Shown: positions 3,734-37,805 of the stretch, one piece after another | How the letters are laid out: every line of letters begins with the position of its first letter | How positions within the stretch are numbered: position 1 is the first letter of the stretch | Virus record (IMG/VR): IMGVR_UViG_3300010885_018971 | Location: 1 to 64,000 of that record | Strand: one strand, 5' to 3' | DNA length: 64,000 bases | Origin: a virus | Program-made: the position numbers and the translations under genes | The notes under the pieces: model-generated | What the model saw: only the letters and a program-made list of their open reading frames with translations | The model's database searches: none | Told to the model about the DNA's origin: nothing

Positions 3734-3822
3734 ATAAGTGTCCAATTCTACGATTCTTTAATATTGGTAGTTAGTGTTTTTCGTGGGTGAATTTGTTATG
3801 TTTAAAATAACAGAAAGCAAAC

Positions 3823-4557
3823 ATGAAAACGCCAGTAAAAAAAGCACCAGTAAAAAGAGTTGCGGTGAAGAAACCGCCAGTCAAAAAAGTAGCGCCAACC
3901 AGACGCACTAAAACACCCCCAGCACCTATTGTCATTGACGTTAGTAGTACTACTAAATCAGCGTCATCGATGCTTGACAAGGCTATCGATTTAATCAAAT
4001 GGGTTGACAGCCCCTTTAAATTATTTGAAGTTATCCTGTTGGCCAGTGTGTTCTTCTTTGGTTATTTTGCCTGGGACAGTAGAACTGTTATTCTAGATGC
4101 AATAACACAAAGCAGCAAGGTGACCAATCTTAAAGAAGTAAATCATCTTATACCAGTTGCTGCTAGTCTACAAAAAGACCTAGAAGCAGTAACTGTGGTT
4201 GTACACAAAGCTGCTTTGGTAGTTAACACCCGAACAACCATGTTGTCCTTTGGTCCAAAAGGGAGAGACAACACATTAGACGGATTAGTTACCAGTTTGT
4301 TCAACAAAGATCCTGGACGTAATGCTGCAATTATTGGTATGCTCAATGGCGAGGTCACCTGCGATAAACTAGAAGGTACTAGCAAGTCTTCCGAGTGGGA
4401 AGCAAAACAAGGTGCTACATTTATCTGCCGTGGAGGTATTCCTCCGGAAGTCGGCGACTTTGATGGATATGTAGCAGTTGGATTTAAAACAGAACCAGCT
4501 GACCTAAGTGTGGTCAAGACTAGAATTAATCTAGCTACCGCTGACATGTCGCAATGA
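3823..4557 (+). CDS. Single-pass membrane protein with basic Lys/Pro N-terminus
   Basis: 244 residues. The first 35 are a low-complexity Lys/Pro/Val run (KKAPVKRVAVKKPPVKK type), then a soluble linker, one hydrophobic helix at about residues 67-85 (LFEVILLASVFFFGYFAW) and a C-terminal domain of about 150 residues with two cysteines (EVTCDKLEG, TFICRGG). A basic cytoplasmic tail with a periplasmic globular domain is the likely topology. A CTAAATAA late-type element lies 90 bases upstream. Function unknown. Confidence 0.7.
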   Translation: MKTPVKKAPVKRVAVKKPPVKKVAPTRRTKTPPAPIVIDVSSTTKSASSMLDKAIDLIKWVDSPFKLFEVILLASVFFFGYFAWDSRTVILDAITQSSKVTNLKEVNHLIPVAASLQKDLEAVTVVVHKAALVVNTRTTMLSFGPKGRDNTLDGLVTSLFNKDPGRNAAIIGMLNGEVTCDKLEGTSKSSEWEAKQGATFICRGGIPPEVGDFDGYVAVGFKTEPADLSVVKTRINLATADMSQ

Positions 4558-8848: not shown

Positions 8849-8860
8849 ATCAAATATCGC

Positions 8861-8889
8861 TTGCCTTTAATTGCAGGGTGGGGTATAAT
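8861..8889 (+). promoter_or_regulatory. Early sigma70-type promoter
   Basis: TTGCCT, 17-bp spacer, TATAAT. The flanks (ATCGCTT before, TTTAATT after the -35) match the other early promoters of this window. An ATG lies six bases after the -10, at the predicted +1. Confidence 0.85.
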
Positions 8890-8919
8890 TATTGTATGAT
8901 GAATGAAAAAGGAATCGTT

Positions 8920-14402: not shown

Positions 14403-15164
14403 ATGTTTTGGTTTAAGAGAAAAGATATTGTTATTGATTGTTTCATAGCCGATGAATTGATATACAATAATTTTAAACTGGATAAAGCGAATAAATTTAT
14501 TCCACAAGAATGGAAAAATCTTCCGCCCCATCATGAGTTTAAATCAAACTCAGATCCAGAATCAACTTTAACTGTTGAGATAGGCACTCTAAAGAAATGT
14601 AAAGGGTTTATTGATTTATTCTCAAGAGGATTTATTCTACCATACTGGGCAGATACGCAAGTACAGGCTTTTACGGATAGGTATGTTTTCGCAGGGCAGT
14701 ATAAATCAGAACCAAATTCTAATTTTAGTGGACATGCTCCAGCACAATATGGTGAAATTTACACAGACTGTGCACAGATTAAATTGGAATGCCCATGGTT
14801 TCTGCAAGAGAAGACTGGAGTTAAATTTGCTTGGAATGAATGCACTTGGCATAATACTCATCGCGCAGGGATTTTTCACATACCTTCTGCTGTTATAGAT
14901 TTTAAATATCAATTTTTGGTTAATGTAAATATCTTTGTTAAGAAAGACACAAGTTTAAAATTAAATGCTGGTGATCCCTTGGTGCATATTCTACCGCTAT
15001 CAGAAAATAATGTTGTACTAAAACATCATTTGGTGAGTCAAACTGAGTATGATAGATTTCAAAATAACTACATTGAATCTATCGGATATAAAAATGCAAG
15101 AGAAATCAGAAAAGATTTAAAATTTAACACTAAAGGTAAATGTCCTTTTGGATTTGGAAAATGA
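14403..15164 (+). CDS. Hypothetical protein, cyanophage-like
   Basis: 253 residues, soluble, aromatic-rich (ILPYWADTQVQAF, APAQYGEIY, LECPWFLQEKTGVKFAWNECTWHN). A beta-rich middle and the phrase GDPLVHILPLSE suggest a small-molecule or cupin-like fold. No family can be named with confidence. AAAGGA precedes the start; its end overlaps the deaminase gene by four bases. Confidence 0.6.
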   Translation: MFWFKRKDIVIDCFIADELIYNNFKLDKANKFIPQEWKNLPPHHEFKSNSDPESTLTVEIGTLKKCKGFIDLFSRGFILPYWADTQVQAFTDRYVFAGQYKSEPNSNFSGHAPAQYGEIYTDCAQIKLECPWFLQEKTGVKFAWNECTWHNTHRAGIFHIPSAVIDFKYQFLVNVNIFVKKDTSLKLNAGDPLVHILPLSENNVVLKHHLVSQTEYDRFQNNYIESIGYKNAREIRKDLKFNTKGKCPFGFGK

Positions 15165-15616
15165 AACAAGAATGGATTGATGCATTCATGGACACTGCGG
15201 AGAGATTCGCAGATTTGTCTAGTGCAATTCGTTTGAAGGTAGGTGCAGTAGTTGTAAAAGACAATCGCATCATCTCAATTGGATATAATGGAACACCTGC
15301 TGGATGGGATAACTGTTGTGAAGAAGTGGTTGATGTTAGTCCCAATGATCCAAGATATGACTACAATCATTTCACTAAAGAATTGAAAACAAAAGATGAG
15401 GTTATTCATGCTGAAGCAAATGCTATTCTCAAACTTGCACGTGATGGTGAATCAGGCAATGGTGCCAGTTTATTCTGTACTCATGCTCCTTGTTTGCATT
15501 GCGCTAAGTTGATCTATGGTGCAGGTATCTCGAGTGTTTACTATCGTAATGCATATCGTAACAATGATGGAATTGATTTTTTAAATAAGTGTAATATTAA
15601 TGTTCTCGCAGGATAA
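15161..15616 (+). CDS. cd: dCMP deaminase
   Basis: 151 residues from the ATG at 15161. Zinc-site motifs H83-A-E85 and P-C111-LH-C114 are complete. The enzyme converts dCMP to dUMP, feeding thymidylate synthesis, and in T4 works in the dNTP-synthesising complex. The protein begins MKQEWIDAFMDTAERFADLSSA, usual for the family; an earlier ATG inside the previous gene is rejected. Confidence 0.93.
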   Translation: MKQEWIDAFMDTAERFADLSSAIRLKVGAVVVKDNRIISIGYNGTPAGWDNCCEEVVDVSPNDPRYDYNHFTKELKTKDEVIHAEANAILKLARDGESGNGASLFCTHAPCLHCAKLIYGAGISSVYYRNAYRNNDGIDFLNKCNINVLAG

Positions 15617-16171: not shown

Positions 16172-16198
16172 AATTACCCTACTGCAAAAAGGGTAATT
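16172..16198 (+). terminator. Hairpin before tRNA-region promoter
   Basis: AATTACCCT and AGGGTAATT form a 9-bp perfect stem with a nine-base loop, followed by AAAATTTAACTTT. It ends the deaminase operon just before the next early promoter. No real U-tract. Confidence 0.6.
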
Positions 16199-16208
16199 AA
16201 AATTTAAC

Positions 16209-16237
16209 TTTACTTTTATTCAAAAAGGCTGTATAAT
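16209..16237 (+). promoter_or_regulatory. Early promoter upstream of first tRNA array
   Basis: TTTACT, 17 bp, TATAAT; ATG seven bases further on. It is the only visible strong promoter before the first array. Confidence 0.85.
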
Positions 16238-16244
16238 TTCTACT

Positions 16245-16358
16245 ATGAAATCGATATCCTGTTTAGCGTCAAGAAAACACCTACCACTCAATAGTGGCTG
16301 GTCGTATGCACGCCCACAGTTTGAGATTACAATGGATCTTGGGGGTTTTGGAAAGTAA
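16245..16358 (+). CDS. Possible 37-residue peptide
   Basis: Open frame starting at the predicted transcription start and ending in YARPQFEITMDLGGFGK, which reads like a folded-protein fragment rather than noise. There is no Shine-Dalgarno. It lies between the promoter and a strong terminator, so it could be a leader peptide or simply the first part of a non-coding leader. Confidence 0.3.
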   Translation: MKSISCLASRKHLPLNSGWSYARPQFEITMDLGGFGK

Positions 16359-16386
16359 AGTGTAACAGATAGTTTACTTCCCAAAG

Positions 16387-16417
16387 CCCTCTGAGATGAA
16401 AGTCCAGAGGGTTTTTT
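16387..16417 (+). terminator. Rho-independent terminator in tRNA leader
   Basis: CCCTCTG ... CAGAGGG stem followed by six T. It lies between the promoter at 16209 and the first tRNA, so the array must be reached by read-through or attenuation control. Confidence 0.85.
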
Positions 16418-16435
16418 GTTTTAGGGCATCGTCCC

Positions 16436-16457
16436 AAATTGTTCTTTAAAAATTTGC
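16436..16457 (+). promoter_or_regulatory. boxA-like antitermination site, copy 1
   Basis: TTGTTCTTTAAAAATTT closely follows the bacterial rrn boxA (TGCTCTTTAACAATTT) that binds NusB-S10. The same 22 bases recur perfectly at 17751 before the second array. A host-like device to keep polymerase going through untranslated RNA genes is the natural reading. Confidence 0.65.
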
Positions 16458-16469
16458 GTACCAAATTGT

Positions 16470-16545
16470 AGGGGATTCGCCAAGTCGGTAAGGCACTGGA
16501 TTTTGATTCCAGCATGCGGTGGTTCGAGCCCATCATCCCCTGCCA
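16470..16545 (+). tRNA. tRNA-Gln (TTG)
   Basis: Full cloverleaf with 7-bp acceptor AGGGGAT/ATCCCCT, anticodon TTG in GGATTTTGATTCC and encoded CCA. Confidence 0.93.
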
Positions 16546-16549
16546 AATT

Positions 16550-16625
16550 GCGTCCTTAGCTCAGCTGGTAGAGCAGTAGACTTTTAATCTATTGGTCGTG
16601 GGTTCGAATCCCGCAGGACGCACCA
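16550..16625 (+). tRNA. tRNA-Lys (TTT)
   Basis: Acceptor GCGTCCT/AGGACGC, canonical GGTTCGAATCC T-arm, anticodon TTT, encoded CCA. Confidence 0.95.
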
Positions 16626-16658
16626 TATAAAAATGTATTACACAGTATGTTTTTATAT

Positions 16659-16734
16659 GGTGATTGTAGCTCAATGGTAGAGTCCAGGATTGTGATTCCT
16701 GTTGTTGTGAGTTCGAATCTCATCAGTCACCCCA
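16659..16734 (+). tRNA. tRNA-His (GTG)
   Basis: Anticodon GTG. The extra 5' G opposite C73 that HisRS requires is encoded, followed by CCA. Confidence 0.95.
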
Positions 16735-16736
16735 AT

Positions 16737-16812
16737 GCCAAGGTAGCTCATCAGGTAGAGCACCAGACTGAAAATCTGGGTGTGGTTGGTTCGAGTCCAA
16801 CTCTTGGTACCA
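16737..16812 (+). tRNA. tRNA-Phe (GAA)
   Basis: Anticodon GAA in CAGACTGAAAATCTG, acceptor GCCAAGG paired with TCTTGGT, A73 and CCA encoded. Confidence 0.95.
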
Positions 16813-16817
16813 GTTAT

Positions 16818-16892
16818 AGCCAATTAGCTCAGTGGTAGAGCAATCGCTTGATAAGCGATAGGTCAGTGGATCGTAACCACTATTGGCTACCA
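16818..16892 (+). tRNA. tRNA-Ile (GAT), altered T-loop
   Basis: Anticodon GAT in CGCTTGATAAGCG, acceptor AGCCAAT/ATTGGCT, CCA encoded. The T-loop reads ATCGTAA instead of TTCGAAT: the T54-A58 pair is swapped to A54-T58. Confidence 0.9.
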
Positions 16893-16898
16893 AGTTAT

Positions 16899-16990
16899 GG
16901 AAAGTAATGCAGGTGCGTTGGTGCGCCGACCAGCCTTGAAAACTGGGTTCTCAGAAATGGGATGGGGTTCGACTCCTCTGCTTTCCGCCA
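16899..16990 (+). tRNA. tRNA-Ser (TGA)
   Basis: Class II tRNA with long variable arm, anticodon TGA, acceptor GGAAAGT/GCTTTCC, G73 typical of serine tRNAs and encoded CCA. Confidence 0.93.
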
Positions 16991-16995
16991 GTTAT

Positions 16996-17070
16996 ACCCT
17001 CTTAGTAAAATGAATATTACACATCGCTACGAACGATGAAGTGGTGGTTTGATTCCATCAGAGGGTACCA
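16996..17070 (+). tRNA. tRNA-Arg (ACG), unusual D- and T-loops
   Basis: Acceptor ACCCTCT/AGAGGGT, anticodon stem CATCG/CGATG with anticodon ACG, CCA encoded. The D-loop AATGAATA lacks GG and the T-loop is TTTGATT, so the usual G19-C56 contact would become A19-T56. Confidence 0.85.
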
Positions 17071-17075
17071 AGTTA

Positions 17076-17165
17076 GGAAGATGGGCAGGACGGTAATGCA
17101 GCAGATTGCTAATCTGTAGGGTGTAGTAATACGCTCACAGGGTTCGATTCCCTGATCTTCCACCA
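17076..17165 (+). tRNA. tRNA-Ser (GCT)
   Basis: Class II with long variable arm, anticodon GCT in CAGATTGCTAATCTG, acceptor GGAAGAT/ATCTTCC, CCA encoded. Confidence 0.93.
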
Positions 17166-17171
17166 GAGTTT

Positions 17172-17256
17172 GCGAGTATGGTGAAATAGGTAGACACAAG
17201 AGACTTAAAATCTCTCGACGCAAGTCGTGCTGGTTCGATTCCTGCTACTCGCACCA
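17172..17256 (+). tRNA. tRNA-Leu (TAA)
   Basis: Class II, anticodon TAA, acceptor GCGAGTA/TACTCGC, A73 and CCA encoded. Confidence 0.94.
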
Positions 17257-17257
17257 T

Positions 17258-17334
17258 GTCACTTTAGCTCAGTAGGATAGAGCAACAACCTTCTAAGTTG
17301 TGGGTCAGTGGTTCGAATCCACTAAGTGACGCCA
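17258..17334 (+). tRNA. tRNA-Arg (TCT)
   Basis: Anticodon TCT in ACAACCTTCTAAGTTGT, acceptor GTCACTT/AAGTGAC, G73, CCA encoded. Confidence 0.94.
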
Positions 17335-17340
17335 GATATT

Positions 17341-17415
17341 GGGCTGATAGCTTAATGGTAAAGCAGTCGACTCATAATCGATTGAGTCTAGGTTCAATTC
17401 CTAGTCAGCCCACCA
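17341..17415 (+). tRNA. tRNA with CAT anticodon, probably Ile2 (lysidine type)
   Basis: Acceptor GGGCTGA/TCAGCCC, CCA encoded. The anticodon arm TCGACTCATAATCGA resembles bacterial tRNA-Ile2, whose C34 is changed to lysidine to read ATA. Identity is inferred; an elongator Met is the alternative. Confidence 0.8.
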
Positions 17416-17420
17416 GATAT

Positions 17421-17495
17421 GCACGTGTGACTGAATGGTAAGGTAGCGGTTTGCAAGTCCGATGTTCACAGGTTCGATTCCTGTCACGTGCTCCA
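17421..17495 (+). tRNA. tRNA-Cys (GCA)
   Basis: Anticodon GCA, acceptor GCACGTG/CACGTGC, U73 typical of tRNA-Cys, CCA encoded. Confidence 0.94.
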
Positions 17496-17497
17496 GA

Positions 17498-17644
17498 TTA
17501 TTTTTTATTGTAAAGTTCGAAAAGAGTTTTTACTTTTTCTTCTAACACAGAAAGACGATTGTCAGCTTTTGCAAGTACAATCACCAATGTGATGAATCCA
17601 AGAAAGACTGGCCACAACTTCATGATGTTATCGATTAGATCCAT
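17498..17644 (-). CDS. Small single-pass membrane protein (holin-like candidate)
   Basis: 48 residues on the minus strand between the two tRNA arrays. Sequence: short N-terminus, a membrane helix (LWPVFLGFITLVIVLAKA) and a charged helical tail (DNRLSVLEEKVKTLFELY). A strong GGAGG lies seven bases before the ATG and a perfect T4 late element is upstream on the same strand. Size and topology fit a one-pass holin, antiholin or other small lysis/membrane peptide; not assigned to a family. Confidence 0.7.
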   Translation of the reverse strand: MDLIDNIMKLWPVFLGFITLVIVLAKADNRLSVLEEKVKTLFELYNKK

Positions 17645-17662
17645 GGTTCCTCCATTTTGCTC

Positions 17663-17670
17663 TATTTATA
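17663..17670 (-). promoter_or_regulatory. Late promoter TATAAATA
   Basis: Exact match to the T4 late consensus on the minus strand, 18 bases before the small membrane protein start, leaving a short leader that contains its GGAGG. Confidence 0.7.
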
Positions 17671-17705
17671 ATACCACTTTGCAAAAAGGGTCATTAAAAT
17701 ATCGC

Positions 17706-17734
17706 TTGCCTTTTATTGATAGTTGAGGTATAAT
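17706..17734 (+). promoter_or_regulatory. Early promoter of second tRNA array
   Basis: TTGCCT, 17 bp, TATAAT, with the usual ATCGC before the -35. Here no ATG follows; the boxA-like site begins 16 bases after the -10. Confidence 0.85.
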
Positions 17735-17750
17735 AACTGTAAGTTAGTTG

Positions 17751-17772
17751 AAATTGTTCTTTAAAAATTTGC
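17751..17772 (+). promoter_or_regulatory. boxA-like antitermination site, copy 2
   Basis: Perfect 22-bp repeat of the site at 16436, here abutting the first base of tRNA-Glu and close to the transcription start, as in rrn leaders. Confidence 0.7.
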
Positions 17773-17846
17773 TCGGTTCGTCTATCGGCTAGGACACTGC
17801 CCTTTCACGGCAGGAAGGAGGGGTTCGATTCCCCCACCGAGTACCA
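17771..17846 (+). tRNA. tRNA-Glu (TTC)
   Basis: Anticodon TTC, acceptor GCTCGGT with ACCGAGT, CCA encoded. Overlaps the end of the boxA repeat by two bases. Confidence 0.94.
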
Positions 17847-18059
17847 GATTTAATTGCATTGGGTTGCCAACCCCAGTAGGCAATGTGATTGTGAATGTTA
17901 TGCGACGGCATGGCCACGATTGTATTGCACGAAACCTTGAGATCGTATCAGGAGGACGCTGGACAAAGTTGGATCGTAATGTGGTAACAACCAATCGTCA
18001 GACGATGACGTGGTAAACCCTGAGTGGGTGTTGTCTATCATCCCAGTGTAATTAAATGT
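17847..18059 (+). other. Gene-free spacer RNA in tRNA array
   Basis: 213 bases between tRNA-Glu and a structured element. No supported ORF and no cloverleaf found. It contains small hairpins, such as GGGTTGCCAACCC near 17864 and ATCGTCAGACGAT at 17994. Whether it is stable RNA or only processed spacer is unknown. Confidence 0.4.
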
Positions 18060-18184
18060 GGTATTAGTTTTGCTGATGTAAGCCATGGGTAATCGTAACA
18101 CCTGAGTAACTCTGTCAATAAACGGTAGTGTGGCCACCAATTCCGTTGAGGCTTAGCAAATAGTGCGTCAGCAAAACTAATATC
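18060..18184 (+). ncRNA. Long-stem structured RNA candidate
   Basis: A 19-base left arm (GGTATTAGTTTTGCTGATG) pairs with 18166-18184 apart from G-U pairs, and a second stem TAAGCC/GGCTTA continues it after a ten-base bulge. The interior holds ACGG/CCGT. It ends two bases before tRNA-Tyr. T4 also carries stable non-tRNA species in its tRNA cluster, so a small stable RNA is plausible; function unknown. Confidence 0.5.
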
Positions 18185-18186
18185 AT

Positions 18187-18271
18187 GGAGACACGGCAAA
18201 GTTGGAGAGTTGCGGCAGACTGTAAATCTGTTCTTTCGGGTGAGTAAGTTCGAATCTTACTGTCTCCACCA
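18187..18271 (+). tRNA. tRNA-Tyr (GTA)
   Basis: Class II variable arm, anticodon GTA in CAGACTGTAAATCTG, acceptor GGAGACA/TGTCTCC, CCA encoded. Confidence 0.94.
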
Positions 18272-18341
18272 AAACAAATGATCGTAACAGATCCAATGTT
18301 TGTTAGTTTCAATGGGTGTTATAGAAACTATCTGGAATTTA

Positions 18342-18416
18342 GGTCTCAAAGTGTTCATGGACGCACACAACACTGTCACTGTTGAAGAAGGGGATCGTTA
18401 CCCCTTGAGACCGCCA
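18342..18416 (+). tRNA. tRNA-Asp (GTC), altered T-loop
   Basis: Acceptor GGTCTCA/TGAGACC, D-arm with GG, anticodon stem CAACA/TGTTG and anticodon GTC, T-stem AGGGG/CCCCT, G73 as required by AspRS, CCA encoded. The T-loop is ATCGTTA, with the same T54-A58 to A54-T58 swap as tRNA-Ile. It may be missed by search tools. Confidence 0.82.
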
Positions 18417-18421
18417 GTTAT

Positions 18422-18496
18422 CGCAGAGTAGAGAAGTAGTATCTCATCAGGTTCATACCCTGAAGGTCGGTGGTGCGATTCCATCCTCTGCAACCA
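18422..18496 (+). tRNA. Initiator tRNA-fMet (CAT)
   Basis: Acceptor CGCAGAG with CTCTGCA leaves the C1-A72 mismatch of bacterial initiators, and the D-stem has A11-T24, another initiator feature. Anticodon CAT, CCA encoded. Only two of the three G-C pairs at 29-31/39-41 are present. Confidence 0.85.
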
Positions 18497-18754
18497 AAAC
18501 ACGTGGCTTTGTTCGCCACTACTGTGACCCGCAGGATAGAAGTGCCGTGACTGGCAAGGGTGGTTCTGAAAGAAAACGTAGCCATGCGAGTGGAGCGAAG
18601 TCCTTTCACTGATGTAAAAGTCAGCAGTCTTACCGAACTGGCGTTGGCAATACGATAGTCCTATGTGTGGCAAGTTGGTGGAAGGTACGTGTGATGGGTG
18701 CGATAGCGTCGTATCTTGATGTGCTATAATTACAACGACATATAGGAAGCACCT
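18497..18754 (+). other. Gene-free segment, possible structured RNA and internal promoter
   Basis: 258 bases between fMet and Leu tRNAs. No supported ORF or cloverleaf. It contains GTGGC/GCCAC and AGTG/CACT hairpins and, at 18722-18730, TGCTATAAT, an extended -10 box that could restart transcription before the last tRNAs. Function otherwise unknown. Confidence 0.4.
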
Positions 18755-18837
18755 GCCCCGATGGTGGAATTGGTAGACACGCTGGTCTTAGAAGCCAGTA
18801 CTTCGGTGTGCGAGTTCGAGTCTCGCTTGGGGCACCA
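18755..18837 (+). tRNA. tRNA-Leu (TAG)
   Basis: Class II, anticodon TAG, acceptor GCCCCGA paired with TTGGGGC, A73, CCA encoded. Confidence 0.94.
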
Positions 18838-18845
18838 AGAATTTT

Positions 18846-18920
18846 GCCTTGTTAGCTCAGTGGTAGAGCGTCTCGTTTACACCGAGAGGGTCGGCAGTTC
18901 GAAACTGTCACAAGGTACCA
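18846..18920 (+). tRNA. tRNA-Val (TAC)
   Basis: Anticodon TAC, acceptor GCCTTGT/ACAAGGT, A73, CCA encoded. Confidence 0.95.
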
Positions 18921-18922
18921 AT

Positions 18923-18997
18923 GGTGATGTAGCACAGTGGTAGTGCAATTGCTTCATACGCAATTGGTCGTTGGTTCAAATCCAACCATCACCACCA
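18923..18997 (+). tRNA. tRNA-Met (CAT), elongator
   Basis: Acceptor GGTGATG/CATCACC fully paired, so not an initiator; anticodon CAT in ATTGCTTCATACGCAAT, CCA encoded. Elongator Met is the best assignment given a separate Ile2-like tRNA at 17341. Confidence 0.85.
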
Positions 18998-19013
18998 TTA
19001 TAAGTAGAATTAT

Positions 19014-19090
<77 letters not shown>

Positions 19091-19095
19091 AGTTT

Positions 19096-19170
19096 GCCGA
19101 ATTAGCACAGTGGTAGTGCAATCGCCTTGTAAGCGATAGGTCGTCAGTTCGAATCCGACATTCGGCACCA
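19096..19170 (+). tRNA. tRNA-Thr (TGT)
   Basis: Anticodon TGT in ATCGCCTTGTAAGCGAT, acceptor GCCGAAT/ATTCGGC, CCA encoded. Confidence 0.95.
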
Positions 19171-19176
19171 AGTTAT

Positions 19177-19251
19177 TCCAGAGTAGCACAGCGGTAGTGC
19201 AGTTGACTGTTAATCAATTGGTCGTAGGTTCGATCCCTGCCTCTGGAGCCA
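19177..19251 (+). tRNA. tRNA-Asn (GTT)
   Basis: Anticodon GTT, acceptor TCCAGAG/CTCTGGA, G73 typical of tRNA-Asn, CCA encoded. Confidence 0.95.
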
Positions 19252-19256
19252 ATATT

Positions 19257-19330
19257 GGGGGATTAGTATAATGGGATTACGGCAGCTTTGCAAGCTGTTT
19301 ATGAGAGTTCGATTCTCTCATCCTCCACCA
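19257..19330 (+). tRNA. tRNA-Ala (TGC)
   Basis: Anticodon TGC; acceptor GGGGGAT/ATCCTCC carries the G3-U70 pair that identifies alanine tRNAs; CCA encoded. Confidence 0.95.
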
Positions 19331-19364
19331 GTTTTTGTTAGATAAGTAAATAAAGGAAAATAGT

Positions 19365-19550
19365 ATGACTAATCATGAAACATTAAAGGCGCAGTTCGAA
19401 GTGTATTTGGCAGAGAACGAGAAATTTACAACCAAAGGTGTGAAGGCATCTGCGGCACGTGCACGTAAAGCATTGCAGGAAATTAGCAAAGCAATTCGTG
19501 AGCGTCGCAAAGAAATCACAGCTGAGAAAGAGGCATTGGCAGCAAAATGA
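19365..19550 (+). CDS. Histone H1-like small basic phage protein
   Basis: 61 residues, Lys/Arg/Ala-rich (TTKGVKASAARARKALQEISKAIRERRKEI). The VKAxAxRARKAL pattern matches small phage proteins often labelled histone H1-like; DNA binding is possible but unproved. AAGGAAAA precedes the start. It lies within the tRNA region between Ala and Trp tRNAs. Confidence 0.7.
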   Translation: MTNHETLKAQFEVYLAENEKFTTKGVKASAARARKALQEISKAIRERRKEITAEKEALAAK

Positions 19551-19756
19551 ACGGTAAAGGTAGCAAGGCAAGACCATTCAGTGTAACTCAACAAGAATAT
19601 GAATCTCGTTGGGATGCAATCTTTGGACGGGACATAAAAGAAGATAACACAGGCACTAGTAAGAATGAGTTTCAGGATGTATTGTCAACAGAAGATTGTA
19701 TGACAATGGAAATGCCAGGAACAATTGGTGGTGCTAAAATTGTTTTTAAAGAGTAA
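19547..19756 (+). CDS. Small conserved phage protein
   Basis: 69 residues starting MNGKGSKARPFSVTQQEYESRWDAIFG, a start seen in other phage small proteins. ATGA overlap with the previous gene. Function unknown. Confidence 0.7.
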   Translation: MNGKGSKARPFSVTQQEYESRWDAIFGRDIKEDNTGTSKNEFQDVLSTEDCMTMEMPGTIGGAKIVFKE

Positions 19757-19759
19757 AGT

Positions 19760-19833
19760 ATCTCGCTGGTGTAATGGCAGCACGTGGGTCTCCAAAACCC
19801 TTGGTCGGAGTTCGAGTCTCTGGCGGGATGCCA
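19760..19833 (+). tRNA. tRNA-Trp (CCA)
   Basis: Anticodon CCA in GGGTCTCCAAAACCC, acceptor ATCTCGC/GCGGGAT, G73 typical of tRNA-Trp, 3' CCA encoded. Confidence 0.94.
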
Positions 19834-19836
19834 ATT

Positions 19837-19910
19837 GCGGGTATGATGTAAAGGTAACCTGAATCCTTGCCAAGGATTACATCCGAGTTCGATTCTCGGT
19901 ACCCGCTCCA
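19837..19910 (+). tRNA. tRNA-Gly (GCC)
   Basis: Anticodon GCC in AATCCTTGCCAAGGATT, acceptor GCGGGTA/TACCCGC, U73 as in bacterial glycine tRNAs, CCA encoded. Confidence 0.95.
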
Positions 19911-19918
19911 GGAATTTT

Positions 19919-20599
19919 ATGAAATCACTAATTATAATTTTATTTCTATTGGCGATTGGTGTGCATGCTAAACCAGTTGAGTCATATGTTTTATATGATG
20001 CTGATAATCATTCTGTGGTTACTGGTACAAACATACACGAGATAAAACCTGTGGCCAGTTTAACAAAGATAATGACCGCAATGGTCGCTATTGATAGTGG
20101 CAACTACAACAGAGAATTACTTGAACGATTACTCATTCGTTCAGACAATACAGCAGCAGATCTGCTCGCAACACAATATCCAAACGGCAAACTAAATTTT
20201 ATTCGTGCAATGAATAATAAAGCACTGCAACTTGGATTACAAGAAACCAGTTTCCATGACCCAAGTGGGCTAAGCATATTCAATCGAAGCACTGCCAGAG
20301 AATACGTTGAGGTTGTGATTGCGGCAAATACGTATCCACTCATTAGAGAGATATCATCCACTCCCGAAAAGAAAATCAGTAGTAATAAAAAGTTTCAGAT
20401 ATTACATAATACGAATACATTATTAAAAGAGTATGACGAAATTGTATTAAGTAAAACTGGATTCACCAGCCATGCTGGTAGATGTTTAGCACTCTCAGTA
20501 GAGAATCAAAGTAAGAAACATATCATTGTTATACTTGGTGAACCAACTCCACAAAAGAGAAGCGAGATCGCTAGAAATTTAATTAAAATGACACAGTAA
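19919..20599 (+). CDS. Secreted D-Ala-D-Ala peptidase (peptidase S11 family)
   Basis: 226 residues with a signal peptide (MKSLIIILFLLAIGVHA). The three penicillin-binding motifs are complete: S47-LT-K50, S75-D-N77 and K179-T-G181, plus the family block FHDPSGLS. Such enzymes trim or cleave peptidoglycan stem peptides in the periplasm. It lacks the C-terminal domain of larger carboxypeptidases, so a short PBP7-like enzyme. It starts nine bases after a tRNA, with AGGA upstream. Likely host-derived; role may be wall remodelling or aid to lysis. Confidence 0.88.
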   Translation: MKSLIIILFLLAIGVHAKPVESYVLYDADNHSVVTGTNIHEIKPVASLTKIMTAMVAIDSGNYNRELLERLLIRSDNTAADLLATQYPNGKLNFIRAMNNKALQLGLQETSFHDPSGLSIFNRSTAREYVEVVIAANTYPLIREISSTPEKKISSNKKFQILHNTNTLLKEYDEIVLSKTGFTSHAGRCLALSVENQSKKHIIVILGEPTPQKRSEIARNLIKMTQ

Positions 20600-20610
20600 G
20601 GGGTATTATC

Positions 20611-21093
20611 ATGCGTAGAATCGACATCGATGAAGTAAAAGCATTCATCGAAGCGCAAAGTCCAACTACTAAAATTTACATTGGTGGTGACTCTGAACGA
20701 TTAATCATAGGAAACGAATGGTACGCAGATTATACTTTGGCAGTTGTTGTTCACATCAATGGTAACAGTGGCTGTAAAATTTTTGGTGAGTCAGTTAGAG
20801 AAAGAGATTACGATCAGAAGAAGAGCAGACCACGTATGCGTCTAATGAATGAGGTATACAAGATTGCAGAATTGTATTTGAAGTTACAAGATGTTTTGGA
20901 AGATAGAGAAGTAGAAGTGCACTTGGATATCAACCCAAACGAAATGTATGGTTCTTCATGCGTGATCAATGAAGCAGTGGGCTATATAAAAGGTATGTGT
21001 AATGTGGTACCATTTGTTAAACCAAATGCTTTTGCGGCATCATATTGCGCAGACAGAATGAAAGATATTCTTTCACATAAGATAGCAGCTTAA
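20611..21093 (+). CDS. RNase H-fold protein (DUF458/YkuK-like)
   Basis: 160 residues. IYIGGDSER near the start and VHLDINPNEMYGSSCVINEAVGYIKGM resemble the DUF458 family, whose RNase H-like fold carries conserved Asp residues in these blocks. Nuclease activity is inferred only. Ends directly before tRNA-Gly(TCC). Confidence 0.65.
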   Translation: MRRIDIDEVKAFIEAQSPTTKIYIGGDSERLIIGNEWYADYTLAVVVHINGNSGCKIFGESVRERDYDQKKSRPRMRLMNEVYKIAELYLKLQDVLEDREVEVHLDINPNEMYGSSCVINEAVGYIKGMCNVVPFVKPNAFAASYCADRMKDILSHKIAA

Positions 21094-21094
21094 T

Positions 21095-21168
21095 GCGGGA
21101 TTCGTAAAATGGTATTACCTTAGCCTTCCAAGCTAAAGTCGGGAGTTCGATTCTCCCATCCCGCTCCA
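21095..21168 (+). tRNA. tRNA-Gly (TCC)
   Basis: Anticodon TCC in TTAGCCTTCCAAGCTAA, acceptor GCGGGAT/ATCCCGC, U73, CCA encoded. Last tRNA of the window. Confidence 0.95.
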
Positions 21169-29798: not shown

Positions 29799-30173
29799 AT
29801 GACAAAAGTATTTACAGACGTAAGCGTATTTCTGAGTGCGTGTGGTCAAGAGGTTCCCTCTAAACCATCTGCACCATCTGAACTATCAACCCTATACATG
29901 AAGTTAATTCAAGAAGAGTTTATTGAACTCTTCACTGCAATTAAGAATGATAACAACACTGAACAACTAGATGGATGTTTTGATCTAATTTGGGTGGTTG
30001 TTGGGTACATGAAGGCACGTGGCTGGGATTGCGAAGCTGCATGGGATGAAGGCGCAAGATCTAATCTTGCAAAAATTGACCCTGTTACTGGTAATGTTAT
30101 ACGTCGCGAAGATGGTAAGATTCTTAAACCAGAGGGCTGGACACCACCTAACTTTGCGAAATTTGTCGCTTGA
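29799..30173 (+). CDS. MazG/HisE-like pyrophosphohydrolase
   Basis: 124 residues. KLIQEEFIELFTAI and GCFDLIWVVVGYM carry the acidic metal sites, and the tail SNLAKIDPVTGNVIRREDGKILKPEGWTPP matches the phage subfamily labelled phosphoribosyl-ATP pyrophosphohydrolase-like. Probably a nucleotide pyrophosphohydrolase. Confidence 0.75.
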   Translation: MTKVFTDVSVFLSACGQEVPSKPSAPSELSTLYMKLIQEEFIELFTAIKNDNNTEQLDGCFDLIWVVVGYMKARGWDCEAAWDEGARSNLAKIDPVTGNVIRREDGKILKPEGWTPPNFAKFVA

Positions 30174-30198
30174 CTTTAATTGATATTTCAGGTATAAT
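30170..30198 (+). promoter_or_regulatory. Early sigma70-type promoter
   Basis: TTGACT, 17 bp, TATAAT; the ATG of the nucleotidase-like gene is six bases further on. Confidence 0.88.
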
Positions 30199-34417: not shown

Positions 34418-34585
34418 ATGTTATGTGATAAAGTTGAGATTGGACCCAGTATTATTATTCTAGACAAAGAGGTGACGTTAAGTTCGTTGCCTGGATGGGT
34501 AGAAGGTGATATGTTCAAATTGATTATTGGTGCAAATGGAAATGTTACATTTATCAAGGTTACCCAACCTGGAGGTGTAATGTAG
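34418..34585 (+). CDS. Small hypothetical protein
   Basis: 55 residues (VEIGPSIIILDKEVTLSSLP ... NGNVTFIKVTQPGG), plausible beta-sheet protein. The start lies one base after the -10 box, so its message would have to come from upstream. Its stop lies in the tmRNA acceptor piece. May be only precursor RNA. Confidence 0.35.
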   Translation: MLCDKVEIGPSIIILDKEVTLSSLPGWVEGDMFKLIIGANGNVTFIKVTQPGGVM

Positions 34586-34650
34586 TATTGCTGTATGAAA
34601 TGATGTAAAAGGTGTTCTGGACGGGAGTTCGATTCTCCCCACCTCCACCA
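34575..34650 (+). ncRNA. ssrA: Permuted tmRNA, acceptor piece (3' end of mature RNA)
   Basis: Ends with T-arm GGGAG-TTCGATT-CTCCC, acceptor strand CACCTCC, A and CCA. Upstream AATGTAGTA ... GATGTAAAAGG ... TTCTGGAC follows the 3' part of E. coli tmRNA. TATTGC at 34586 can pair with GCAATA at 34706 (helix P2). The exact 5' end is uncertain by about 10 bases. It is encoded before, not after, the tag-coding piece. Confidence 0.85.
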
Positions 34651-34682
34651 AAATTCATTATTGTGTAGTAGTGAGTTTTGGT
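34651..34682 (+). other. tmRNA intervening segment
   Basis: 32 bases joining the CCA end to the 5' end of the coding piece. AAAATTCA and TGAGTTTT extend the acceptor stem through the CCA (CACCA with TGGTG), giving about 18 continuous pairs in the precursor with a 14-base loop. This is the expected processing hairpin of a circularly permuted tmRNA. Confidence 0.8.
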
Positions 34683-34938
34683 GGGGGTGACTAGGTTTCG
34701 ACAGGGCAATAAGTAACTGAGTGGACAGCACGAGACAGATACTCGTAAAAAGTAAATAAAGTAAACGCAAACGACTCACAGTTCGCATTGGCAGCCTAAA
34801 CGCTGACTAGGGTTTCGGTAGGTTTCCTCGTAACAGAATAACCTACCACTGTTAGTTAGTCTATGCTTGATGCCAGCAACCGATACCTTAGTATCTCGTA
34901 CTGAACACATTGCGACGAATCTGACAAGTTGATAGTAT
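34683..34938 (+). ncRNA. ssrA: Permuted tmRNA, coding piece (tag ANDSQFALAA)
   Basis: Starts GGGGGTG, which pairs with CACCTCC and gives the G3-U70 alanine identity pair, then ACTAGGTTTCGAC as in bacterial tmRNA. The tag frame 34767-34799 reads ANDSQFALAA and stop. Downstream is an H-type pseudoknot: GGTAGGTT/AACCTACC with TAACAG/CTGTTA. It would rescue stalled ribosomes with SmpB and mark products for proteolysis. The 3' end is estimated. Confidence 0.88.
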
Positions 34939-36245: not shown

Positions 36246-36761
36246 ATGCGAGTATATTTAAAAATACTTCTAATAATTACAACGATGGTAGGTGCCACTG
36301 CATATGTGACATCCATACCTCAAGAACAAAAATTATTCAATGTCAGATATAAAGAACTAACATCTGATGTAAGAAAACAAATTGATTGTCTTGCAGATAA
36401 CATTTACTTCGAAGCAGGACATGAACCAGAAGAAGGCAAAATTGCAGTTGCCTTGGTTACACTTAATAGAACGCAAGATCCTAGGTTTCCAAAAGAAATT
36501 TGCTCTGTAGTCAAACAGAAGGTAAACTTAGTGTGTCAGTTCTCTTGGATCTGTGAACCCATGAAAGCAATAAAACATAATGATGTATACAGAAAGTCTC
36601 AAGATGTGGCTTTGCATGTATATGCTAATTATGAAATGATTGATGACATTACAAATGGTGCACTTTACTACCATGCAGACTACGTGAATCCAGGATGGAA
36701 GTTGAAAAAGACTAAAGTCATTGGCCGACATATTTTTTATAAAGAAGGCAGTAAAATCTAA
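36246..36761 (+). CDS. SleB-like cell wall hydrolase
   Basis: 171 residues with a membrane anchor or signal segment (VYLKILLIITTMVGATAYV). CLADNIYFEAGHEPEEGKIAVALVTLNR, FPKEICSVV, CQFSW and ALYYHADYVNPGW are blocks of the SleB/Hydrolase_2 family; the Glu of YFEAG is the likely catalytic residue. It would cleave peptidoglycan in the periplasm. Overlaps the protease gene by one base. Confidence 0.85.
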   Translation: MRVYLKILLIITTMVGATAYVTSIPQEQKLFNVRYKELTSDVRKQIDCLADNIYFEAGHEPEEGKIAVALVTLNRTQDPRFPKEICSVVKQKVNLVCQFSWICEPMKAIKHNDVYRKSQDVALHVYANYEMIDDITNGALYYHADYVNPGWKLKKTKVIGRHIFYKEGSKI

Positions 36762-37321
36762 TGATGAACAAATTAAACCTCCAGCTGAATGAATCTTCTG
36801 ATTCTAGGCATTCGTTTTTTCTATTGATGGAGGAAATTACTCTTGCTACATGTAAGCAAGCAGTTGAGTGGATATTCGAAGCCAACTTTGCTGAAGAAAC
36901 ACCTGACCGATTAAATATGGTCATAACTTCTCCAGGTGGTGATTTGAATGCCGCATTTGCTTTGGTTGATACCATGCGTGGATCTTCCATTCCAATTCGA
37001 ACAATTGGACTTGGACAGATTGCTTCAGCTGGACTTATGATTTTCATTGCTGGTGAAGCAGGACAGCGTATTCTTACACCGAATACTTCTATCTTGTCAC
37101 ATCAGTACTCATGGGGTGCTTTTGGTAAGGAGCATGAGTTGTTTGCACAAATTAAAGAATTTGACTTGACAACCAAACGTATGATTGCTCATTACAAAAA
37201 ATGCACTGGATTAAAAGAAGATCAGATTCGTGAATACTTATTGCCACCACAAGATGTTTGGCTGAGTGCTCAAGAAGCTAAAAAATTAGGACTATGCGAT
37301 GACGTTAAAGAACTTAAGTAA
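36761..37321 (+). CDS. ClpP-like serine protease
   Basis: 186 residues. ITSPGGDLNAAFALVDTM, the nucleophile in GLGQIASAG (S89) and His114 in ILSHQYSWG match ClpP. No ClpX-type partner is seen here, so it may use a host unfoldase or act alone. ClpP-like genes are known in aquatic T4-like phages. The pairing with a phage tmRNA nearby is suggestive. Confidence 0.85.
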   Translation: MMNKLNLQLNESSDSRHSFFLLMEEITLATCKQAVEWIFEANFAEETPDRLNMVITSPGGDLNAAFALVDTMRGSSIPIRTIGLGQIASAGLMIFIAGEAGQRILTPNTSILSHQYSWGAFGKEHELFAQIKEFDLTTKRMIAHYKKCTGLKEDQIREYLLPPQDVWLSAQEAKKLGLCDDVKELK

Positions 37322-37715: not shown

Positions 37716-37748
37716 TCCCCCCAGATCCGTAGGGCATCAAAATATCCC

Positions 37749-37777
37749 TTTACTTTAATTCAAAAATAGGGTATAAT
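37749..37777 (+). promoter_or_regulatory. Early sigma70-type promoter
   Basis: TTTACT, 17 bp, TATAAT and ATG at +1 (37784), which opens a 15-codon frame overlapping the next gene start. Confidence 0.88.
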
Positions 37778-37805
37778 TATATTATGGGAGTGAACTGGAA
37801 ACACT

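Follow-up and report, generated by a model that had tools for sequence, protein, structure and literature searches.

The locus analysed here raises the question why a phage should carry transfer RNA (tRNA) genes for every amino acid, and under which condition it would express them. The stretch under study, hereafter the window, comprises bases 1-64000 of the 90,795-base virus record IMGVR_UViG_3300010885_018971. Its array at 16470-21168 contains 26 tRNA genes and is preceded by a leader region (16209-16457) with the layout of a transcription attenuator. We propose, with a probability of roughly 0.7, that the array is a conserved, minimal and nearly self-sufficient decoding set under ribosome-mediated attenuation. 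The proposal builds on leader anatomy, compensatory base changes, amino-acid coverage of the leader and a one-to-one tie between leader and array, all of which are computed directly. The window phage is a T4-like myovirus, carrying genes for gp32, gp59, RNase H, gp5/gp6-like baseplate proteins, ribonucleotide reductase and PhoH. Its closest relatives are other metagenomic contigs, among them G001 (gp5-like protein 71% identical) and G013 (baseplate protein about 50% identical), and the cultured relatives, Melnitz, BUCT-ZZ01, ACP17 and a Variovorax phage, are all distant. Since G013, in which 127-bp terminal repeats are present, measures about 161.8 kb, the window record is probably a fragment of a larger genome.

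The tRNA complement

A preliminary description of the window had counted 26 tRNA genes for all 20 amino acids including an initiator, a count which ARAGORN and Infernal bear out, with Ser-UGA being sub-threshold but conserved. The genes are arranged as follows:

16470..16545, plus strand: tRNA-Gln(UUG), first array gene (ARAGORN, Infernal)
16550..16892, plus strand: tRNA-Lys(UUU), His(GUG), Phe(GAA), Ile(GAU) (ARAGORN, Infernal)
16899..16990, plus strand: tRNA-Ser(UGA), atypical D arm (tRNA-Sec model, relaxed ARAGORN; kept in G001 and G013)
16996..17415, plus strand: tRNA-Arg(ACG), Ser(GCU), Leu(UAA), Arg(UCU), Ile2(CAU) (ARAGORN, Infernal)
17421..17495, plus strand: tRNA-Cys(GCA) (Infernal, 54.2 bits; missed by default ARAGORN)
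17771..18496, plus strand: tRNA-Glu(UUC), Tyr(GUA), Asp(GUC), initiator fMet(CAU, 18422-18496) (ARAGORN, Infernal)
18755..19330, plus strand: tRNA-Leu(UAG), Val(UAC), Met(CAU), Pro(UGG), Thr(UGU), Asn(GUU), Ala(UGC) (ARAGORN, Infernal)
19760..19910, plus strand: tRNA-Trp(CCA), Gly(GCC) (ARAGORN, Infernal)
21095..21168, plus strand: tRNA-Gly(UCC), last array gene (ARAGORN, Infernal)

With default settings, ARAGORN reports 24 tRNAs in 16470-21168 plus a permuted transfer-messenger RNA (tmRNA) located elsewhere in the window, and the Infernal model RF00005 adds Cys-GCA (17421-17492) above its gathering threshold. Thus, 25 of the 26 genes pass the thresholds of one program or the other. The exception, Ser-UGA, is found only below threshold, by the tRNA-Sec model (34.9 bits) and by ARAGORN with strongly relaxed thresholds, a setting which yields many false genes and was applied to this gene only. 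It is nevertheless kept at the same place, with 79% identity in G013 and a standard ARAGORN call in G001. With its non-standard D arm and a C.A at 31:39 that is common to G013, it is the sole atypical cloverleaf of the array, and no amino acid is left uncovered by a failing structure. The CCA end is encoded by all 26 genes, as previously noted. The three CAU genes can likewise be told apart: that at 17341 has an Ile2-like anticodon stem and loop (ACTCATAATC), that at 18422 shows the unpaired C1-A72 of initiators and that at 18923 is the elongator Met. Since the anticodon stem of the initiator (TCAGG/CCTGA) lacks the full GGG:CCC, its identity rests on the 1-72 mismatch.

The 26 genes represent 26 different species with none repeated, for which a random draw with equal weights would give a probability of 26!/26^26 = 6.6e-11; the set is not a random draw. 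Under ordinary wobble rules, which we assume to apply, it reads all sense codons but CGG, and CGG accounts for 13 of the 25,170 codons in the record (0.5 per thousand). Modifying enzymes would still be needed, namely TadA for Arg-ACG and TilS for Ile-CAU; a deaminase gene upstream of the array (15140-15616) was considered as TadA and rejected, being a dCMP deaminase. The same species recur in G001, where the order is partly changed (Val, Asn, Ala and Thr moved) and Cys is again found by Infernal. G013 has the same set plus additional Thr, Ala and Glu genes; its Ser-UGA, Gly-UCC and a CAU tRNA with unpaired end, read as the initiator, were located by hand. A further 18 of 20 leader-bearing records contain 24-30 tRNAs each, and this recurrence of the core complement lends good support to the earlier notion of an independent decoding set. 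In the array of G042 (L217, about 6061), ARAGORN with a slightly relaxed threshold additionally finds a tRNA with the amber-reading anticodon CUA.

Two explanations that concern the gene content can be weighed at this point. Phages commonly pick up tRNA genes, as is generally known, but that the present ones are accumulated host cargo without selected function is very improbable: redundancy is absent, the set is kept in relatives despite its shuffled order, the CCA ends are intact and the array has dedicated regulation (see below). Alternatively, a simply large array could compensate for differences between phage and host codon use, as proposed for phage XacN1 from a codon-use correlation (PMC5852040), and the window phage is indeed AT-rich. 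We regard this as unlikely, since a set that has a single gene for each isoacceptor, covers every amino acid and recurs with the same core in diverged relatives is no biased supplement, and since the attenuator would be left unexplained.

The leader region

Between the promoter and the first tRNA we found, in this order, a leader open reading frame (ORF), a core hairpin, a long hairpin, an overlapping terminator and a boxA-like element, followed by tRNA-Gln:

16209..16237, plus strand: sigma70-type promoter, TTTACT-17 nucleotides (nt)-TATAAT; relatives have TTGACA/TATAAT-like elements
16245..16358, plus strand: leader ORF of 37 amino acids, MKSISCLASRKHLPLNSGWSYARPQFEITMDLGGFGK, beginning near the predicted +1
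16284..16297, plus strand: candidate pause hairpin CCACT-CAAT-AGTGG within the HLPLxSGW core, predicted in representative folds
16341..16391, plus strand: antiterminator hairpin (5' arm 16341-16359, 3' arm 16373-16391), -26.7 kcal/mol
16387..16417, plus strand: intrinsic terminator CCCTCTG-loop-CAGAGGG-TTTTTT, its 5' arm overlapping the antiterminator 3' arm
16439..16457, plus strand: boxA-like antitermination element TTGTTCTTTAAAAATTTGC, recognised by sequence and repeated at 17754-17772
17706..17772, plus strand: second promoter TTGCCT-17-TATAAT and second boxA before tRNA-Glu, without a leader ORF

The antiterminator 5' arm sits in the end of the leader ORF, stop codon included. The terminator, whose loop measures 11 nt, is missed by a simple terminator scan. 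In a comparison of the window with Rfam 15, including the T-box and the glutamine riboswitch, no family other than tRNA and tmRNA passed the gathering score, and a relaxed threshold added nothing relevant. Upstream of the -35/-10 boxes of several phage promoters we additionally observed a repeated promoter-like element, TGCAAAAAGGGT...ATTAAAAT, at 16183-16220, 17680-17717, 8852-8896, 30166-30198 and 37732-37778.

Association of the leader with tRNA arrays

Because the terminator is unusually conserved, we used its 25-mer alone, chosen without reference to the leader, as query over 2.9 million viral contigs (IMG/VR). The leader ORF is present in each of the 42 matched contigs, and the 38 that extend far enough downstream all run into an array of up to 27 tRNAs opening with tRNA-Gln, located 75-79 nt after the terminator (201 nt in one contig). 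In G000, G001 and G013 the element occurs once per genome. A scan of the viral contigs with the leader core gave 95 stretches; among the 80 examined, six without an array were discarded as chance matches and nearly all others lead into arrays. It should be noted that this pattern presupposes the core residues and guarantees their presence; the primary evidence for the coverage described below is therefore the terminator-only scan. When bacterial and archaeal genomes (257 billion bases) were searched with the core pattern, 33 matches were obtained, none of them before an array or attenuator, and we consider these matches chance; the terminator 25-mer had no match in genomes, and neither leader peptide nor leader DNA had a relative among named phages.

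Altogether, a callable leader of 37-46 codons lies between promoter and terminator in 77 contigs, with a distance of 5-7 nt from the -10 box to the ATG in 76 of them (7 nt in the window). One natural case of decay was observed. In G037, the leader has a GTG start, no Arg codons and a truncated arm and is followed by neither terminator nor boxA, and only 11 tRNAs are left of the array, whose first half is missing; leader decay and array loss here go together in the expected direction. In L129 and L132, the leader is followed by a short, different array starting with tRNA-Arg(UCU), and the T tract of the terminator is broken (TTTCTT), possibly reflecting loss of regulation.

Amino-acid coverage of the leader

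The leader of the window contains 19 of the 20 amino acids and codons of 24 out of 25 isoacceptor classes, Val being absent. These classes are those of the array's elongator tRNAs, with both Leu, Ser, Arg and Gly classes and with AUA besides AUY. All leaders from the terminator scan (37-46 residues) reach 19-20 amino acids and 23-25 of these 25 classes, so that leader codons match the array products in an extended sense. As a control, about 116,000 gene windows of equal length were taken from four related genomes; at 37 codons these average 15.1 amino acids and 16.9 classes. Only 1.5-4% of the control windows reach 19 amino acids and fewer than 5 per 10,000 reach 24 classes; at 37 codons the probability of at least 24 classes is 8e-5, and none of 532 gene starts reached 24. 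Pooling all scans gave 49 unique leader peptides, 27 or 28 of which contain all 20 amino acids (in this comparison the start of L138 was set wrongly, its true start giving 19). Val is the only residue ever missing, apart from Asp once, and coverage is already complete 5' of the antiterminator arm.

Chimeras made by shuffling alignment columns among representatives below 60% identity contain 18.3 amino acids on average, compared to 19.7 observed (P about 3e-5). This suggests that coverage is kept by compensation, with residues moved between positions: Cys occupies position 6 in some leaders and position 22 in others, and L119 has His and Gln exchanged. Outside the arm, the ratio of nonsynonymous to synonymous polymorphism (pN/pS) of the leader is 0.74, which points to weak constraint on residue identity, the result expected if the set of amino acids is all that matters. 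Clustered repeats of a regulatory codon are absent, each amino acid occurring once or a few times per leader.

Competing hairpins

In all 58 sequences folded, the antiterminator exceeds the terminator in stability (mean -23.8 vs -17.3 kcal/mol) and shares 7-11 nt with it, consuming most of the terminator 5' arm. Five pairs of the terminator stem are changed on both sides with 97.8% paired, a value matched by none of 500 shuffles, and the compensatory variants comprise CCCTCTG/CAGAGGG, CCCTCTA/TAGAGGG, CCCTCGA/TCGAGGG, CCCCGA/TCGGGG and CCCCTG/CAGGGG. The antiterminator shows 26 doubly changed cells, again unmatched in 500 shuffles, but only three doubly changed pairs, which is not above its shuffles. 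In covariation score and doubly changed cells, both stems exceed shuffled and slid controls. The pause hairpin carries a compensatory change in L119 (CCGTT/AACGG), and in G042, judged by eye, the arm is strongly changed yet still pairs, while the leader retains all 20 amino acids.

Folding of 14 representatives with a simulated ribosome showed that a ribosome on the stop codon abolishes the antiterminator and leaves the terminator alone. With the A site more than about 4-6 codons upstream of the arm, the antiterminator forms in these simulations, and nearer to the arm it is blocked. Without a ribosome, the antiterminator likewise forms in silico before the terminator is complete, in all 14 representatives.

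A second leader in Xanthomonas phage X1

Xanthomonas phage X1 (OQ427096), the sole example identified among the cultured phages whose arrays were checked, contains an unannotated 39-codon ORF (MKTILLTSKNWHQVAALAVKPADERYVAGFDLNTGYGMS) upstream of its tRNA array, followed by an antiterminator (-23.2), an overlapping terminator (-17.7) and a boxA-like element. Its peptide comprises 19 amino acids, with Cys alone missing, all inside the first 30 codons; in the relatives of the window phage, 0.24% of 31-codon gene windows reach this number. The X1 leader has no sequence relative in our phage collection and is unrelated to the leaders of the window clade. A quick look upstream of the arrays of Felix O1, RcXuper, DLP6 and XacN1 recognised no leader-terminator arrangement.

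With X1 at hand, it can be asked whether the short ORF is instead the gene of a small functional protein and has a terminator of its own, the array being expressed by leaky read-through and the coverage arising by chance or from the needs of the protein. The strongly conserved HLPLxSGW core and the good promoter and terminator of the ORF fit such a protein. However, the core doubles as a hairpin with compensatory change in L119, the ORF end lies in a stem competing with the terminator in 58 of 58 sequences, and X1 combines the same layout with an unrelated peptide. Taken together with a coverage that far surpasses that of gene windows or gene starts and is maintained by compensation, and with the weak constraint on residue identity outside the arm (see pN/pS above), this makes a small protein an improbable explanation.

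Proposed mechanism

We infer that the leader is translated and that ribosome stalling on it opens the array. RNA polymerase would start at the promoter 16209-16237 and a ribosome would begin the leader at or beside the 5' end of the transcript. If all charged tRNAs are present, the ribosome would keep pace up to the stop codon and cover the antiterminator 5' arm, the terminator would form and the array would stay off. Shortage of a charged tRNA would instead stall the ribosome upstream, allowing formation of the antiterminator, which would consume the terminator 5' arm and let the polymerase continue into the tRNA genes, presumably aided by boxA. With nearly all amino acids in the leader, running short of almost any one tRNA should suffice to open the array, and leader RNA that is not translated is also predicted to be open. 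The likely purpose would be the replacement of host tRNAs that defence nucleases, RNA decay or starvation have removed.

This last prediction touches on a further possibility, namely that the attenuator is real but senses translation in general (ribosome availability or initiation, for example upon host shut-off), with the mixed leader serving as an average message. The position of the leader start near +1 and the antiterminator predicted without a ribosome would suit such a sensor, the latter being unlike the his leader, whose untranslated RNA terminates (PMC4046918). An average message would, however, contain about 15 amino acids and 17 classes instead of the 19-20 and 23-25 found, and the leaders include the rare classes AUA, AGR, Cys, Trp and His. 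We therefore hold a sensor of general translation to be rather unlikely, although less so than a small protein.

Several observations weigh against attenuation by shortage of individual tRNAs. Codons for Asp, and often Glu, lie too near the antiterminator arm for good sensing, leaving 16-18 amino acids at least 5 codons upstream of it. Val is missing here and in many relatives, yet the array encodes tRNA-Val. The leaders share ancestry and are hence not independent trials, and the decay seen in G037 is a single event. Minimum-energy folding of the full-length leader yields the antiterminator in only 21 of 57 cases, and the model consequently requires folding during transcription. Finally, the second promoter before tRNA-Glu can drive the second half of the array without the attenuator. 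The attenuator would thus gate the first twelve tRNAs directly and the remainder by read-through on top of the second promoter.

The preliminary description had also concluded that host tRNAs are depleted or cleaved during infection. Gene content does not show this, but the attenuator, which had been overlooked, points to tRNA shortage as the sensed condition and is stronger evidence for the shortage idea than the tRNA genes themselves. It indicates that selection has favoured expression of the array under shortage of charged tRNAs, whatever the cause. Our analysis of the sequence identified no nuclease and no sign of tRNA cleavage, and a search for a T4-type RNA ligase, run without a positive control, found none. 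The anticodon loop of Lys-UUU (CUUUUAA) is ordinary, and therefore gives no sign of an anticodon-loop escape of the type described in PMC10264068.

Relation to known systems

As in the trp, his and ilvGMEDA leaders of enterobacteria, a short ORF with a candidate pause hairpin follows directly on the promoter, and mutually exclusive antiterminator and terminator structures precede the operon, with the terminator directly before it. Those leaders repeat codons of one or a few amino acids, as in the 7 consecutive His codons of the his leader (PMC4046918), whereas in the leaders described here each of 19-20 amino acids occurs once or a few times. They further differ in being phage-borne, in controlling tRNA genes instead of biosynthesis, in starting near +1 and in being predicted open when untranslated. 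As clustered regulatory-codon repeats are absent, we refer to an attenuator-like variant and not to a plain member of the trp/his type.

Complete phage tRNA sets are already known. XacN1 encodes 26 canonical tRNAs for 20 amino acids in each terminal repeat (PMC5852040) and Shigella phage Sf14 26 tRNAs for 19 amino acids (PMC12482277), so that all or nearly all amino acids are covered as in the window array. In contrast to the latter, the tRNAs of XacN1 are, in the part examined, scattered over about 20 kb among ORFs, and the Sf14 paper does not mention an attenuator. Phage tRNAs or anticodon-loop variants have been described, in the portions of the reports drawn on here, as counter-defence against tRNA-cutting host systems (PMC10264068, PMC11555353 and, for PARIS/AriB, PMC12409363). 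The purpose proposed there, restoring tRNAs in infection, is the same, but those portions contain no sensing switch such as that proposed here. We found no leader spelling nearly all amino acids before a tRNA array in the open-access literature searched. As far as we could find, a regulatory leader of near-all amino acids before a complete phage tRNA set appears to be new.

Further features of the window

Outside the array, the window contains the following tmRNA:

34513..34890, plus strand: two-piece (permuted) beta-type tmRNA, tag ANDSQFALAA (ARAGORN, Infernal)

A permuted tmRNA is present in six of seven relatives tested and is possibly related in function to the tRNA array. Since the window tmRNA best fits the betaproteobacterial model, the host is presumably betaproteobacterial, and contig origins together with this host type suggest a lake habitat. 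The aquatic phage Melnitz also has a two-piece tmRNA (PMC9004378), but that of the window is beta-type, and Melnitz has only four tRNAs. In DLP6 (L222, about 3740-3980), we noticed by eye an unannotated two-piece tmRNA with the tag ANDDSFAPMAIAA just before the tRNA array. About 1.9 kb from the window tmRNA lies a ClpP-like protease gene (36761-37321), whose ClpP score is far under equivalog cut-offs and which possibly has a phage protease role.

Within the array, the non-coding stretches 17847-18186 and 18498-18754 belong to no Rfam family; an inverted repeat lies around 18060-18180 in the first, whose conservation in G001 is about 70%, and the second matches G012. Between the two Gly tRNAs lies a D-Ala-D-Ala carboxypeptidase-like gene (PF00768, 19919-20599), related phage proteins of which are annotated pbpG, as well as a gene for an RNase H-like protein (PF04308, 20611-21093). 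The latter protein is likewise encoded inside the arrays of G013, DLP6, RcXuper and X1. In Rhizobium phage I1_18, it adjoins genes for a CCA-adding enzyme, tRNA-His guanylyltransferase, RNA ligase and a kinase, and in Vibrio phage nt-1 it lies away from annotated tRNAs. It may act on tRNA.

Implications

We consider it more probable than not that such a "pangram" leader is a general sensor of tRNA shortage and an inducible counter to tRNA-cutting defences, which arose more than once or diverged to the unrelated leaders of the aquatic window clade and X1. We know of no earlier attenuator that senses tRNA supply generally and not one or a few amino acids. The large tRNA complements of phages have been a matter of debate for more than 50 years, and the proposed switch points to tRNA shortage during infection as one answer. 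If the model is true, the leader would directly show which tRNA shortages the phage is built to meet, which makes the idea testable, and would constitute a compact, ready-made reporter for the depletion of almost any tRNA.

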